From a virus, in IMG/VR virus record IMGVR_UViG_3300042534_000281, positions 1 through 27,545 of that record: DNA of 27,545 nucleotides. One strand, given 5' to 3'. How positions within the stretch are numbered: position 1 is the stretch's first letter; each line of letters begins with the position of its first letter. Position numbers and translations under genes: made by a program. The notes under the pieces are model-generated. The model did not search any database. It was not told the origin of the DNA and saw nothing but the letters and a program-made list of their open reading frames with translations. Positions 5,160 to 26,220 of this stretch are shown here, one piece after another.

Positions 5160-5171
5160 CCAAAATAAAGG

Positions 5172-5200
5172 TTGACCTTTTACTACTGACCCCGTATAAT
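5172..5200 (+). promoter_or_regulatory. Strong sigma-70 (early-type) promoter with palindromic -35
   Basis: TTGACC (5172-5177), a 17-bp spacer and TATAAT (5195-5200). The -35 sits in the palindrome AAAGGTTGACCTTT. The 46 bp at 5160-5205 recur identically at 13792-13837. It drives the gene starting at 5227. Confidence 0.9.
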
Positions 5201-5226
5201 GTACATATAATCAACTAAGGTGTTGT

Positions 5227-6466: not shown

Positions 6467-6552
6467 GGAAAATAATTTGCACAGAATCGCGCAAGGGGCG
6501 GTACTGCTACTGTAAACTAATAAAATTAAGGTATTCTTTTTGGCTAAAAAGG

Positions 6553-6581
6553 TTGACCTTTTGGGCCAGAACCTCTATAAT
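6553..6581 (+). promoter_or_regulatory. Strong sigma-70 (early-type) promoter
   Basis: TTGACC (6553-6558), a 17-bp spacer and TATAAT (6576-6581), with the -35 inside AAAAGGTTGACCTTTT. It precedes the SprT-like operon. The layout is nearly the same as at 20070. Confidence 0.9.
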
Positions 6582-6614
6582 GCACAGCATAAGTTAATTA
6601 AGGGGTAGCAAACA

Positions 6615-13106: not shown

Positions 13107-13193
13107 GCCTTGGTGGAGAAATAGGTAAACTCATCAGACTTAAAATCTGACGCTCGAAAGGGCTTGCCGGTTCGACCCCGGCCTGAGGCACCA
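13107..13193 (+). tRNA. tRNA-Leu (anticodon UAA), CCA encoded
   Basis: The acceptor stem GCCTTGG pairs with CTGAGGC (two G-U pairs). The anticodon stem TCAGA/TCTGA closes the loop CTTAAAA with anticodon TAA. A long variable arm (class II, as in Leu) precedes the T-arm GCCGG-TTCGACC-CCGGC, and CCA is encoded. It reads UUA codons, which suit the AT-leaning genes here. A sigma-70 promoter lies upstream and a structured region directly downstream. Confidence 0.95.
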
Positions 13194-13790: not shown

Positions 13791-13803
13791 TCCAAAATAA
13801 AGG

Positions 13804-13832
13804 TTGACCTTTTACTACTGACCCCGTATAAT
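13804..13832 (+). promoter_or_regulatory. Strong sigma-70 (early-type) promoter, duplicate of the one at 5172
   Basis: TTGACC (13804-13809), a 17-bp spacer and TATAAT (13827-13832). Positions 13792-13837 are identical to 5160-5205. It precedes the radical SAM/TPM/LemA gene cluster. Confidence 0.9.
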
Positions 13833-13859
13833 GTACACATAAATTAAGGTTTACCAAAA

Positions 13860-20038: not shown

Positions 20039-20069
20039 TTTATTAACCGTAAAATAGTTGCGAAAAAGG

Positions 20070-20098
20070 TTGACCTTTTGGGCAAATCCCTCTATAAT
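20070..20098 (+). promoter_or_regulatory. Strong sigma-70 (early-type) promoter
   Basis: TTGACC (20070-20075), a 17-bp spacer and TATAAT (20093-20098), with the palindromic -35 AAAAGGTTGACCTTTT as at 6553. Drives the gene at 20130. Confidence 0.9.
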
Positions 20099-20129
20099 GT
20101 ACACATAAATTAGATAAAGGGTAAAAGAA

Positions 20130-22703: not shown

Positions 22704-22878
22704 TCCAATGTTATCTGTAATGCTCGCCAGCTTTGTTGCCGGTGTTTGGATAGTTAAGGGTACCTGGGACTTCTTCAAGAGTAAACAACGATGGGAACGT
22801 ATATTCGGCGGAGTGTTTGCAGGTGTAGGTGTAGGTCTTTTGGCTTCATTGTATATTATTTACGGCATAATTGCTTGA
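22696..22878 (+). CDS. 60-aa protein with two transmembrane helices
   Basis: Hydrophobic helices at about 5-22 (MLSVMLASFVAGVWIVKG) and 38-60 (IFGGVFAGVGVGLLASLYII), joined by a basic loop (FFKSKQRWER), give a hairpin in the inner membrane with both ends outside or both inside. Possible holin-like or superinfection-exclusion protein; there is no direct evidence. It ends just before the promoter of the NAD gene. Confidence 0.7.
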   Translation: MNDPMLSVMLASFVAGVWIVKGTWDFFKSKQRWERIFGGVFAGVGVGLLASLYIIYGIIA

Positions 22879-22903
22879 CAAAACATTTAATTTAGTGTAT
22901 CGT
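22875..22903 (+). promoter_or_regulatory. Sigma-70 promoter of the NMN adenylyltransferase/Nudix gene
   Basis: TTGACA (22875-22880), a 17-bp spacer and TATCGT (22898-22903). A near-palindrome TAGTGTA-TCG-TATACTA overlaps the -10 and may be an operator; a late-type ACTAAATA follows. Confidence 0.65.
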
Positions 22904-22915
22904 ATACTAAATACT

Positions 22916-22972
22916 TAAACTGTCAGAGGGGCTCTACAGTTTACTACAGCACATATATAGGGAGACTATATC
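22916..22972 (+). promoter_or_regulatory. Structured leader of the NadM/Nudix gene, copy 1
   Basis: Outer stem AAACTGT/ACAGTTT, inner AGA/TCT and a G-rich loop GGGGC; then, after an A/C-rich spacer, a second hairpin ATATAG-GGAGA-CTATAT with the ribosome binding site in its loop. The last 27 nt before and across the ATG are identical to the nadV leader. Candidate riboswitch or coordinated translational control element. Confidence 0.6.
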
Positions 22973-24052
22973 ATGAATAAACAATACGACCTCGTCGTTT
23001 TCATCGGAAGGTTCCAACCTTTCCACAATGCACACAAACAAATACTCAAACAGGCACGAGAATTGTCTGACAATGTTCTGGTCCTAATAGGGTCGATGAA
23101 CAGTCCGCGCACAATTAAGAATCCCTGGACATACGAAGAACGAAAGTTCATGATTATGACCAGCGCGTATGATGATTATGTGCCTTACGTCGGAGGCATC
23201 AAAGATCACACATACGATGACAACGCCTGGATCACCGAGGTCGGTGAGACCGTTGCTACTTTTATTGATGGAACTGCCATCAAAAAGATTGCAGTTATCG
23301 GTCACGATAAAGATCACTCCTCATTCTATCTGAACTATTTCCCACAGTGGGATTTTATTCCAGTGCCATCATATCCCGAACACAGCGTTAGCATTGACGC
23401 AACTAAGATTCGTAGACTAATGTTCGAGAACGACATTGAGTTTATTAAAGGGGTTGTTCCTCCAGAAGTTTTCGAACAGTTTGTAGATAAAAATCAATAC
23501 GCCGATCCGTTTCTATACTCAGAAAATTTTGCACTGTTACAAAAAGAATGGGACTTTATTAAGGCTTACAAAGACTCGTGGGCAGGTGCTCCATACGAAC
23601 CAACATTTGTTACTGTAGATGGGGTTGTTATACAGTCCGGTCACATCCTCCTTATTCAACGAGGTGAATTCCCAGGTAACGGCTTATGGGCAATGCCTGG
23701 AGGGTTTGTTAATCCCAAAGAACGTGTACGAACAGCAGTAACACGCGAGCTCCGCGAAGAGACTGGACTTAAACTTCCTGTTAAAGTCTTAGACCGTGCC
23801 ATTGATGCTTACGAAATGTTTGATGACCCAGGTCGCAGTACACGCGGACGCACCATCACGCACACTTACAGAATTACACTTGACCCTACGCAGAAGCTGC
23901 CTAAAGTAAAAGGCATGGATGATGCTAAGGATGCAGAGTGGGTGCCACTTAGTAAAATTGCAGACATGGAAAATGTAATGTACGAGGATCATTATTATAT
24001 TATTCGTCACATGCTGGCACTACCTGCAACGGCGGTTAGAGGAGGTATCTAA
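22973..24052 (+). CDS. nadM: Bifunctional NMN adenylyltransferase / Nudix hydrolase
   Basis: This 359-aa fusion has an N-terminal NMNAT domain with GRFQPFHNAH (residues 12-21, the (H/N)xGH nucleotidyltransferase motif) and SIDATKIRR (140-148, the ISSTxxR equivalent). It makes NAD+ from NMN and ATP. The C-terminal Nudix domain (about 210-350) holds a full Nudix box GFVNPKERVRTAVTRELREE followed by TGL, and probably hydrolyses ADP-ribose or a related nucleotide. Same layout as phage KVP40 NatV. With NadV it forms a two-step NAD+ salvage route. Confidence 0.93.
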   Translation: MNKQYDLVVFIGRFQPFHNAHKQILKQARELSDNVLVLIGSMNSPRTIKNPWTYEERKFMIMTSAYDDYVPYVGGIKDHTYDDNAWITEVGETVATFIDGTAIKKIAVIGHDKDHSSFYLNYFPQWDFIPVPSYPEHSVSIDATKIRRLMFENDIEFIKGVVPPEVFEQFVDKNQYADPFLYSENFALLQKEWDFIKAYKDSWAGAPYEPTFVTVDGVVIQSGHILLIQRGEFPGNGLWAMPGGFVNPKERVRTAVTRELREETGLKLPVKVLDRAIDAYEMFDDPGRSTRGRTITHTYRITLDPTQKLPKVKGMDDAKDAEWVPLSKIADMENVMYEDHYYIIRHMLALPATAVRGGI

Positions 24053-24053
24053 T

Positions 24054-24350
24054 ATGACTGAAGAGATTACATTATTTGATATTATTAGAATCTCGAGCTA
24101 CTCGTCGGACGAAAAGATCGGGTTGCTTGATGATAGTCGATGGCACAACATATTAGCGACCGACGACAGTATGTCAGTAAGACTGCGGGCAAAACGCGCA
24201 CGTAAAAATCTATATACCGTTGATGAAGCTAACAAACGTAAACTTGAAGAAACTCAACAAGGTATGATGCTAGAGAAAGAAGCACAGTCCGATGATTTCT
24301 CTACTAGGGTACGAGCGAAAGCTCGCATTAGAAGATTAAAGGGGGAGTGA
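24054..24350 (+). CDS. Unknown 98-aa charged protein
   Basis: Starts one base after the NadM stop with AGAGGAGG upstream. Strongly charged and helical: SSDEKIGLLDDSRWHNILATDD, SVRLRAKRARKNLYTVDEANKRKLEETQQG, FSTRVRAKARIRRLKGE. Two SxRxRAKxR repeats (SVRLRAKRAR and STRVRAKARI) suggest an internal duplication. Sits inside the NAD cluster but has no NAD-related motif. Confidence 0.75.
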   Translation: MTEEITLFDIIRISSYSSDEKIGLLDDSRWHNILATDDSMSVRLRAKRARKNLYTVDEANKRKLEETQQGMMLEKEAQSDDFSTRVRAKARIRRLKGE

Positions 24351-24351
24351 G

Positions 24352-24732
24352 ATGGATAGGCGGCAAGTAGAGCAAGATATATTCTTAGGAACGTACAGCG
24401 GACGTGAACTGCTAAAGAAGCATAATATGGACGAGACCGGAATATGGGAAGTACGTGGAGAAGATCCAAACTGCGACATGGGTGGCAGCCATCACCAACC
24501 GTACCTTGGCACTTACGAAGGAACACTTCGTGACGTAGCAGAAGCAGCAGTTGAAATGAGCGGATTCTGGCAATGGGGTGGCGGTGGATCTATTAAGAAA
24601 CTTAAGATTCAAAAGCCAACACGTATAGCCGAAGCAGAGAAGCTTGCTATTTTGGGCAAATTGAACCAGCGAGAGCGGGTTTTATTGGATTTAGAAGACG
24701 AATATCAAGTATTAATCGCAAATAGTGATTGA
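24352..24732 (+). CDS. Unknown 126-aa protein with Gly/Trp-rich core
   Basis: The product has an N-terminal helix (RRQVEQDIFLGTYSGRELLKKHNM), a core WEVRGEDPNCDMGGSHHQPYLGTYEGTLRDVAEAAVEMSGFWQWGGGG, and a helical tail (ERVLLDLEDEYQVLI). The middle resembles DUF-type phage proteins of the form W-x-V-x-GED-x4-G...LGxYEGxLxDV, which I associate with T4-like phages; function unknown. It is the last gene before the nadV promoter, inside the NAD cluster. Confidence 0.75.
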   Translation: MDRRQVEQDIFLGTYSGRELLKKHNMDETGIWEVRGEDPNCDMGGSHHQPYLGTYEGTLRDVAEAAVEMSGFWQWGGGGSIKKLKIQKPTRIAEAEKLAILGKLNQRERVLLDLEDEYQVLIANSD

Positions 24733-24756
24733 CAATTGATCTACTTGTGTTATAAT
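24729..24756 (+). promoter_or_regulatory. Sigma-70 promoter of nadV
   Basis: TTGACA (24729-24734), a 16-bp spacer and TATAAT (24751-24756), overlapping the stop of the previous gene. Confidence 0.85.
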
Positions 24757-24771
24757 TAGCATAAGTATTAC

Positions 24772-24828
24772 ATATGGACAGGGGGTCTGTTCCATATTTT
24801 ACAACAACATATATAGGGAGACTATATC
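24772..24828 (+). promoter_or_regulatory. Structured leader of nadV, copy 2
   Basis: Outer stem ATATGGA/TCCATAT, inner CAG/CTG with a bulged T, loop GGGGT, then the ATATAG-GGAGA-CTATAT hairpin. The outer stem bases differ from copy 1 but remain paired, a compensatory pattern that supports a real structure. Confidence 0.6.
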
Positions 24829-26220
24829 ATGAACTACAATAACGCAAACTTCATACTGATGGCCGACAGTTACAAATACAGCCACGCACCACAGATTCCA
24901 GCAGGAACTGAATACACCACAGCATATTTCGAATCACGTGGATCGGACGATCCTGATTTTACTGATACAGTAAACTTCGGAATGCAGATGATGCTGATGA
25001 AATACTTCCTTACTCCAATTACAATGGATGACGTGGAAGAAGCAAAAGCAATTATCGAAGCTCACGGCGAACCATTTAACTACGAGGGCTGGAAAATTAT
25101 TGCTACCGAGCTTGGTGGCAAGCTTCCAATTTCAATCGAAGCAGTAGCAGAAGGAACTGTTATTCCACTTCGCAATGTACTATATCAAGTTACCAACACT
25201 GATCCACGCTTCCCTTGGATGCCTGCATTCGTTGAGACAATTATGGTACGTGATGGCGGTTGGTACCCAACTACAGTAGCAACTCTTAGCTACACTATTA
25301 AAAAGTTCATGAAGGAAACTTATGATCGTACCGGCTCAGTGCAAGGTCTGGACTTTAAACTTCACGACTTCGGTTACAGAGGCGTAAGCTCAAACGAGTC
25401 AGCTGAGATGGGTGGCATTGCACACCTTGTTAACTTCATGGGCACTGACACAGTTGGCGCTCTTATTGCAGGTCGCAGATACTACAATGAACCTATTGCT
25501 GGTTTCAGTATTCCAGCAGCAGAACACAGCACCATCACAAGCTGGGGTGAAGAGAATGAAGTCGAAGCATATCGCAATATGCTTAAACAGTTCGGCGGCA
25601 AAGGCAAGATGCTTGCTGTTGTATCAGACAGTTATGATATGATGAATGCGGCTGGTGAAATTTGGGGTAATGAGCTAAAACAGGAAGTTATTGATAGCGG
25701 TGCTACCGTTGTGGTTCGTCCAGACAGCGGCGATCCTACACAGGTCCCGATTGATGTAATTGAGATTCTTATGCAGAAGTATGGTTACACTACAAACGAA
25801 CTTGGCTTCCGTACACTTCCTGGTTGCATCCGTGTTATCCAAGGCGACGGTATTACTAAAGATAGCATCAAAATTATTCTTGCCAATCTTGAAGCTAACA
25901 AGATGACACTCGATAACCTGGCATTTGGCATGGGGGGCGGCCTGCTCCAACAAGTTAATCGTGATACTCTTAAGTTTGCCCAAAAGGCTAACAGTAACAC
26001 AGTTAACGGAGTTAAGAAGGATCTTTACAAGCGTCCAAAAACAGACGATGGTAAAGCATCTAAAGCGGGTGAGCAAGCTCTTATTATCGAAGATGGACAA
26101 TACAAAACCATCCGAAAAGACGAACTTAACGGACGAGAGAACCAACTTAGAGAAGTTTACCGAAATGGTGAGCTCCTTATTAAGGACGATTTTGCTACAA
26201 TCCGAGCTCGCGCAGCTTAA
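24829..26220 (+). CDS. nadV: Nicotinamide phosphoribosyltransferase
   Basis: This 463-aa protein is full length for the NAMPT/NadV family and carries its signatures: FGYRGVSSNESAEMGG, FMGTDTVGAL (Asp207, substrate pocket), IPAAEHSTITSWG with the catalytic His233, VVVRPDSGDP (Arg297, Asp299) and IQGDGI then FGMGGGLLQQ. It makes NMN from nicotinamide and PRPP. With the upstream NadM it rebuilds NAD+, as in KVP40-like phages and in the NARP2 pathway that counters NAD+-depleting defences. Own promoter and a leader shared with nadM indicate co-regulation. Confidence 0.95.
   Translation: MNYNNANFILMADSYKYSHAPQIPAGTEYTTAYFESRGSDDPDFTDTVNFGMQMMLMKYFLTPITMDDVEEAKAIIEAHGEPFNYEGWKIIATELGGKLPISIEAVAEGTVIPLRNVLYQVTNTDPRFPWMPAFVETIMVRDGGWYPTTVATLSYTIKKFMKETYDRTGSVQGLDFKLHDFGYRGVSSNESAEMGGIAHLVNFMGTDTVGALIAGRRYYNEPIAGFSIPAAEHSTITSWGEENEVEAYRNMLKQFGGKGKMLAVVSDSYDMMNAAGEIWGNELKQEVIDSGATVVVRPDSGDPTQVPIDVIEILMQKYGYTTNELGFRTLPGCIRVIQGDGITKDSIKIILANLEANKMTLDNLAFGMGGGLLQQVNRDTLKFAQKANSNTVNGVKKDLYKRPKTDDGKASKAGEQALIIEDGQYKTIRKDELNGRENQLREVYRNGELLIKDDFATIRARAA

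Follow-up and report, generated by a model that had tools for sequence, protein, structure and literature searches.

A two-hairpin leader on phage NAD+ salvage genes points to a dedicated translational control element

Anti-phage defence often ends in the depletion of nicotinamide adenine dinucleotide (NAD+), which phages counter by NAD+ salvage (PMC9503650, PMC12774641). The virus record IMGVR_UViG_3300042534_000281 of IMG/VR, of which we analysed positions 1 to 27,545 (a 27.5-kb fragment, hereafter the window), carries two salvage genes on its plus strand, each preceded by a leader of about 57 nucleotides (nt) with the same architecture. What does this shared leader do, and how widely does it accompany such genes in phages? 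The genes are nadM-Nudix (22973–24052), coding for a 359-residue bifunctional nicotinamide mononucleotide (NMN) adenylyltransferase/ADP-ribose pyrophosphatase (Pfam CTP_transf_like and NUDIX; phrog_395), and nadV (24829–26220), coding for a 463-residue nicotinamide phosphoribosyltransferase (NAMPT; Pfam NAPRTase and NAMPT_N; phrog_448). The leader stands before the NAD genes of many unrelated phages and before hardly any other gene, a distribution that suggests phage NAD+ supply is under an undescribed form of translational control.

Read from 5' to 3', the nadM leader (22916–22972) and the nadV leader (24772–24828) begin with hairpin A, which has an outer stem of 7–8 bp and a GGGGC or GGGGU pentaloop. 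A linker rich in A and C follows, then hairpin B (UAUAG-GGAGA-CUAUA); the five loop nucleotides of B, GGAGA, form the Shine-Dalgarno (SD) sequence. RNAfold predicts both hairpins in both leaders, at -14.1 (z = -2.7) and -13.0 kcal/mol (z = -2.3), in agreement with the coordinates and architecture given in a preliminary description of this DNA. Before nadM, hairpin A (22916–22943) has the outer stem AAACUGU/ACAGUUU, a bulged C22924, inner pairs AGA/UCU and the pentaloop GGGGC at 22928–22932; before nadV (24772–24797) it has the outer stem AUAUGGA/UCCAUAU, inner pairs CAG/CUG, the pentaloop GGGGU at 24782–24786 and a bulged U24790. The outer stem thus differs between the two genes while remaining paired, as that description had also held. 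The linkers, read from the sequence, occupy 22944–22954 and 24798–24810 and lead to hairpin B at 22955–22971 and 24811–24827, where it can be extended to AUAUAG-GGAGA-CUAUAU (-3.7 kcal/mol at nadM). The leader ends, described earlier as conserved over 27 nt, are identical (22951–22977 and 24807–24833). Hairpin B, TATATAGGGAGACTATATC, has exactly two copies in the window with up to three mismatches allowed, where none is expected, and among 32 SD-bearing starts of open reading frames (ORFs) only those of nadM and nadV carry it. Sigma70-like promoters are predicted upstream of both leaders, TTGACA-17-TATCGT at 22875–22903 (10/12 consensus matches) and TTGACA-16-TATAAT at 24729–24756 (12/12 matches); given the former, hairpin A would sit near the 5' end of the nadM transcript.

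The association with NAD genes was counted in loci picked solely by NadV or NadM protein similarity, without selection for structure. Hairpin B lies upstream of 62/76 nadV and 37/71 nadM genes, against 9/547 other genes (Fisher p 2e-61 at nadV). Hairpin A, under a strict rule, precedes 85 of the 147 NAD genes against 23/547 others, and the two hairpins in strict order precede 31/76 nadV and 26/71 nadM genes (57/147 together) against 2/547. We also scanned eight records (the window, Roseobacter phage DSS3P8, Ochrobactrum phage phiOC, Synechococcus phage B23, Stenotrophomonas phage Moby, Cronobacter phage D6b, Klebsiella phage K64-1 and most of Xanthomonas phage LucasX), asking which SD-bearing starts have a hairpin B of 5 Watson-Crick bp. 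About 2,640 SD-bearing starts yielded 15 sites, 13 of them before nadM or nadV: 2/2 in each of the window, DSS3P8, phiOC, B23 and Moby, 1/1 in K64-1 and 2/4 in D6b. The lack of sites in LucasX is due to B stems of just 4 bp and to a scan that stopped 5.7 kb short of its genome end; its leaders do have AUAGA hairpins. The nadM (68.9 kb, minus strand) and nadV (139.6 kb, plus strand) genes of D6b are about 70 kb apart and both bear hairpin B, so a single leader transmitted with an operon is not the explanation. The leader-bearing NAD genes fall into three families, nadV, nadM and pnuC, which share no homology. The link to NAD genes drawn in the preliminary description is therefore strongly supported by these sequence comparisons, and a search of whole phage genomes for the leader before many unrelated genes did not overturn it.

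To assess conservation of the structure we trained a covariance model, R1, on 36 leaders of other phages, the window sequences excluded. At E<=10 it gives exactly two matches in the window, 24772–24826 (E 3.5e-5) and 22917–22970 (E 0.12, weakened by the bulged C). Most of the IMG/VR records scanned (up to 518 kb) have one to three R1 sites, nearly all upstream of nadV, nadM, pnuC or a small gene near nadM; on 12 isolate genomes the model was confident for DSS3P8 and B23 and missed variant leaders visible by eye. In an alignment of 129 matches, from loci chosen to contain leaders, 90.4% of cells at paired positions are paired, all 13 pairs have changed on both sides, and the covariation score is 0.877 against 0.178 after shuffling and no more than 0.156 when partners are slid. 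Covariation in our first alignment, A3, is partly circular because A3 was selected for pairing; the test free of this bias is the counts in protein-selected loci. The pentaloops found at NAD genes in all viral loci taken together (AUAGA, GUAGU, GUGGU, AGAGA, GGGGU, GUGGA, GCAGU and ACGGU) conform to RNRG(A/U), with G at position 4 in 120/120 and A..A (102) or G..U (16) at positions 1 and 5. Hairpin B has a covarying 5-bp stem and a GGANN loop, with GGA kept in 119–120 of 120, whereas the linker (3–17 nt, 80% A+U, 5% G) is not conserved in sequence. The G-rich loop arm and the ribosome-binding loop could pair with each other, as first suggested, over 3–4 bp in the window, but such pairing is no commoner in the family than chance (longest run 3.64 on average vs 3.77 shuffled), and nothing consistent was seen for pairing of loop A with the linker. 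With a covarying structure, a place in the leaders of one pathway and a ribosome-binding site (RBS) involved, the element qualifies, as judged from these comparisons, as a riboswitch-like cis-regulatory RNA.

Which phages carry it? A scan of IMG/VR for TATAGGGAGACTATA-N-ATG returned unrelated chance matches and two more phage contigs in which every match is an NAD gene: 3300013101_000088, with leaders at nadM and nadV, and 3300046534_001481, with leaders at pnuC (confirmed by Pfam NMN_transporter), nadM and nadV. Their hairpin A stems are unrelated in sequence yet paired, around GKGGH-type loops. In the latter record, a phage fragment (locus L026, minus strand), a NadR-like gene accompanies pnuC, nadM-Nudix and nadV, and there are three leaders in total; a pnuC protein scan gave nothing beyond the already known contig. 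Relatives of nadV found by protein similarity have upstream the order AAGUCC-stem-AUAGA-stem-GGCA, linker, and an SD hairpin that is a palindrome, for example GAUAAGGAGUUUAUC or UCAAGGGAGACUUGA; the architecture is thus as in the window, with another loop. Among the IMG/VR matches listed for this AUAGA-type pattern, every complete leader precedes a NAMPT gene, very divergent NAMPTs included, a few of these genes being cut off by the contig end. Among the matches examined in bacterial genomes none stood before NAMPT; the pattern is narrow, so this does not prove bacterial absence.

A DNA-similarity search of the leader against isolate phages gave no useful match, its primary sequence being too variable. 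Variant leaders were assigned by reading the sequences. Both hairpins or close variants are present in DSS3P8, LucasX and phiOC (the last with GGGGU loops, like the window), in the Synechococcus phages B23 and BUCT-ZZ01 (AAAGA loops, SD hairpin in a different register), in Klebsiella phage K64-1 and Erwinia phage pEa_SNUABM_50 (6-nt A loops such as GAUGUA), and before nadM of Stenotrophomonas phage DLP_6. In Salicola phage SCTP-2 hairpin A alone is clear; RB43, Klebsiella phage Roth26, D6b and Moby have hairpin B only, and relatives of KVP40 have short B-like hairpins. Small genes near nadM can bear the leader too. One of the two non-NAD genes with both hairpins (locus L064) is of this kind, its leader being nearly identical to a nadM leader elsewhere. 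A family of 108–109 residues, phrog_12218 (motif LAKELHGMLCT-NHTDGC-W-YE), has the leader in four loci (L064 at 1557, L393 at 1501, L399 at 101 and L062 at 2552) and lies upstream of nadM wherever downstream DNA was read. Two further proteins (155 and 118 residues, no PHROG match), directly 5' of nadM, have it at L396 101–150 and L403 1657–1703 (minus strand).

As to what the leader does, we put the probability at about one half that it is a translational control element dedicated to the phage NAD+ salvage genes and worked by a trans-acting factor. Hairpin B alone is predicted at about -0.4 to -3.7 kcal/mol; such marginal stability is what one would expect of a gate that depends on another agent for its closure. 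By itself it would admit ribosomes, and a factor that reads the A loop together with B would clamp B shut and block translation. The factor would most likely be a protein that these phages all have in common and that is linked to NAD+ supply. The natural suspect, and best candidate, is NadM-Nudix, which might act in the way that T4 DNA polymerase acts at its operator. The genes would then be repressed while NAD+ is plentiful, and repression would lift when host defence drains it. A loops are shared within a phage: 32 of the 37 phages with both leaders have the same loop at both genes, where shuffling predicts 26.1 and none of 5,000 shuffles reached 32. The B stems of the two genes are likewise more alike within a phage than when shuffled (p 0.0004), and rare loops, C-AGAGA-G and the GGGGU type among them, occur at both NAD genes of the same phage. 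Of the 30 records searched, 29 encode a strong match to NadM-Nudix, and four phages have NadV without NadM; the nadV leaders read for three of these (Staphylococcus phage 812, ICP1 and KhF2) all lack the element.

Several observations weigh against control by such a factor. Relatedness and possible gene conversion confound the sharing of loops by the two genes of a phage, and relatedness among the 37 phages weakens the p-values of loop and stem sharing. The presence of NadM is expected anyway where nadM itself bears the leader. Aeromonas phages 31 and L9-6 and Caulobacter phage Ccr10 have both NadM and NadV and no element in their leaders, so NadM does not require it. Finally, the strict rule detects hairpin A at only 49/76 nadV and 36/71 nadM genes.

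The preliminary description had instead raised a possible NAD-related riboswitch. In such a switch, NAD+, NMN, nicotinamide or ADP-ribose would bind A and/or B and stabilise B, turning translation off when NAD+ is sufficient. The NAD-gene specificity of that proposal stands, over three non-homologous families, and carriers infecting very different hosts imply a widespread signal. The SD sequence within the structure and the marginal stability of hairpin B also fit, and NAD+-II riboswitches likewise involve the RBS and precede pnuC (PMC7749635). The direct sensing fares less well. Very few bases are conserved for an aptamer, the linker varies in length and sequence, phages with hairpin B only would need a 15-nt aptamer, and loop variants common to both genes of a phage suggest a co-evolving partner; together these favour a trans-acting repressor, most like a protein operator, over a direct NAD+ aptamer. 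Nor is there a match to the NAD+-I riboswitch family RF03013 (a 62-position model, run without a positive control genome) in the window. Against all 4,227 families of Rfam 15 the leaders have no match even at E<=10, as the earlier failure to recognise a described NAD+ riboswitch had suggested, and the scans returned only tRNAs and one chance small nucleolar RNA. We therefore regard a metabolite riboswitch as doubtful, and slightly more so its specific form, a phage class, not found in the bacteria scanned here, that would sense NAD+ (or NMN/ADP-ribose) directly through two small hairpins and open nadV, nadM and pnuC upon the NAD+ drain of defence.

It is improbable that the leader senses nothing, hairpin A guarding the mRNA 5' end and B tuning ribosome loading (S1-dependent initiation) for genes needed in equal amounts. 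SD hairpins can tune translation, and hairpin A lies just 3' of a predicted sigma70 promoter in the window and in many relatives. However, a plain shared translational enhancer, the alternative named at the outset, is disfavoured because the leader keeps to NAD genes where hundreds of other genes also have SD sequences, and such an enhancer gives no role to the conserved RNRG loop: with the loop G replaced by C, A or T in the search pattern, the number of NAD genes with both hairpins falls from 57 to 4, 3 and 3, respectively. Still less credible is an RNase target, in which hairpin B would offer GGAG or GGAU to a RegB-like endoribonuclease that inactivates early mRNA. GGAG is found in 85/120 and GGAU in 20/120 B loops, but GGAA takes 14/120, the NAD-only occurrence goes unexplained, and 20 leader-bearing or related records gave no RegB family match in a search that detected no positive control. 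A promoter for a phage RNA polymerase can be set aside: TATAGGGAGA resembles a T7-type initiation sequence, and TATAGGGAGAC is identical in the two leaders of the window and five leaders of the two related contigs, but other phages retain the hairpin through compensatory changes and not the sequence, the match is found only at NAD genes and nowhere else in these contigs, and sigma70 promoters are predicted just 5' of the window leaders.

Two ORFs of unassigned function lie between the salvage genes on the plus strand, one of 98 residues (24054–24350; no Pfam or PHROG match) and one of 126 residues (24352–24732; phrog_33851). An apparent relative of the latter, judged by eye from a common GIW-VRGED-NCD-GG motif, has its own AUAGA-type leader in the phage of locus L101 (near 1204–1252). 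Elsewhere the window has a tRNA-Leu (anticodon TAA) at 13107–13193 and four repeated sigma70-type promoters (5160–5210, 6541–6591, 13792–13842 and 20058–20108; copies 63–98% alike) whose -35 region falls within the inverted repeat AAAGGTTGACCTTT; these are possibly promoters plus operator.

A putative control RNA specific to one pathway, found before nadV, nadM and pnuC in phages that infect alphaproteobacteria, gammaproteobacteria and Synechococcus, is a small, defined target. Laboratory hosts exist for several isolated carriers (DSS3P8, Synechococcus phage BUCT-ZZ01 and, for hairpin B, RB43). The two small gene families of unassigned function under the same leader are candidates for new NAD-related functions. 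Our literature search, limited to open-access papers, found no description of this leader or of phage control of these genes.

Among known elements, the NAD+-I (nadA motif) riboswitch resembles the leader in lying upstream of NAD genes. Leaders bound by CsrA/RsmA present GGA in a hairpin loop over the SD sequence, as hairpin B does, and CsrA sites are not confined to NAD genes. We rejected membership of a CsrA regulon, as the A loops (AUAGA, GUAGU, GGGGU) lack GGA in nearly all cases; none of 19 phage records searched encodes CsrA (a positive control was detected), and a host CsrA is possible. The NAD+-II (pnuC motif) riboswitch of Streptococcus shares the NAD pathway, the position upstream of pnuC and an RBS within the structure; it has a proposed P1/P1a/pseudoknot fold with highly conserved positions (PMC7749635), whereas the phage leader is two simple hairpins in which no conserved pseudoknot was found. 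The absence of an Rfam 15 match at E<=10 bears on this comparison with the limit that Rfam 15 may not hold the motif, whose published consensus is only a figure. The nearest known design, by analogy, is the operator of gene 43 in the T4-type phages T4 and RB69, with a hairpin about 40 nt upstream, an overlap with the RBS and a loop that is important for binding and differs between phages (PMC3014915). The leader likewise occurs in T4-type phages and combines an upstream hairpin, whose loop follows a conserved pattern and varies between phages, with a part overlapping the RBS. It differs in its loop, in a second hairpin with the SD sequence in the loop, in serving NAD salvage genes and in being shared by several genes; and whereas the gene 43 operator has a known binding protein, the leader has a suspected one, NadM-Nudix.

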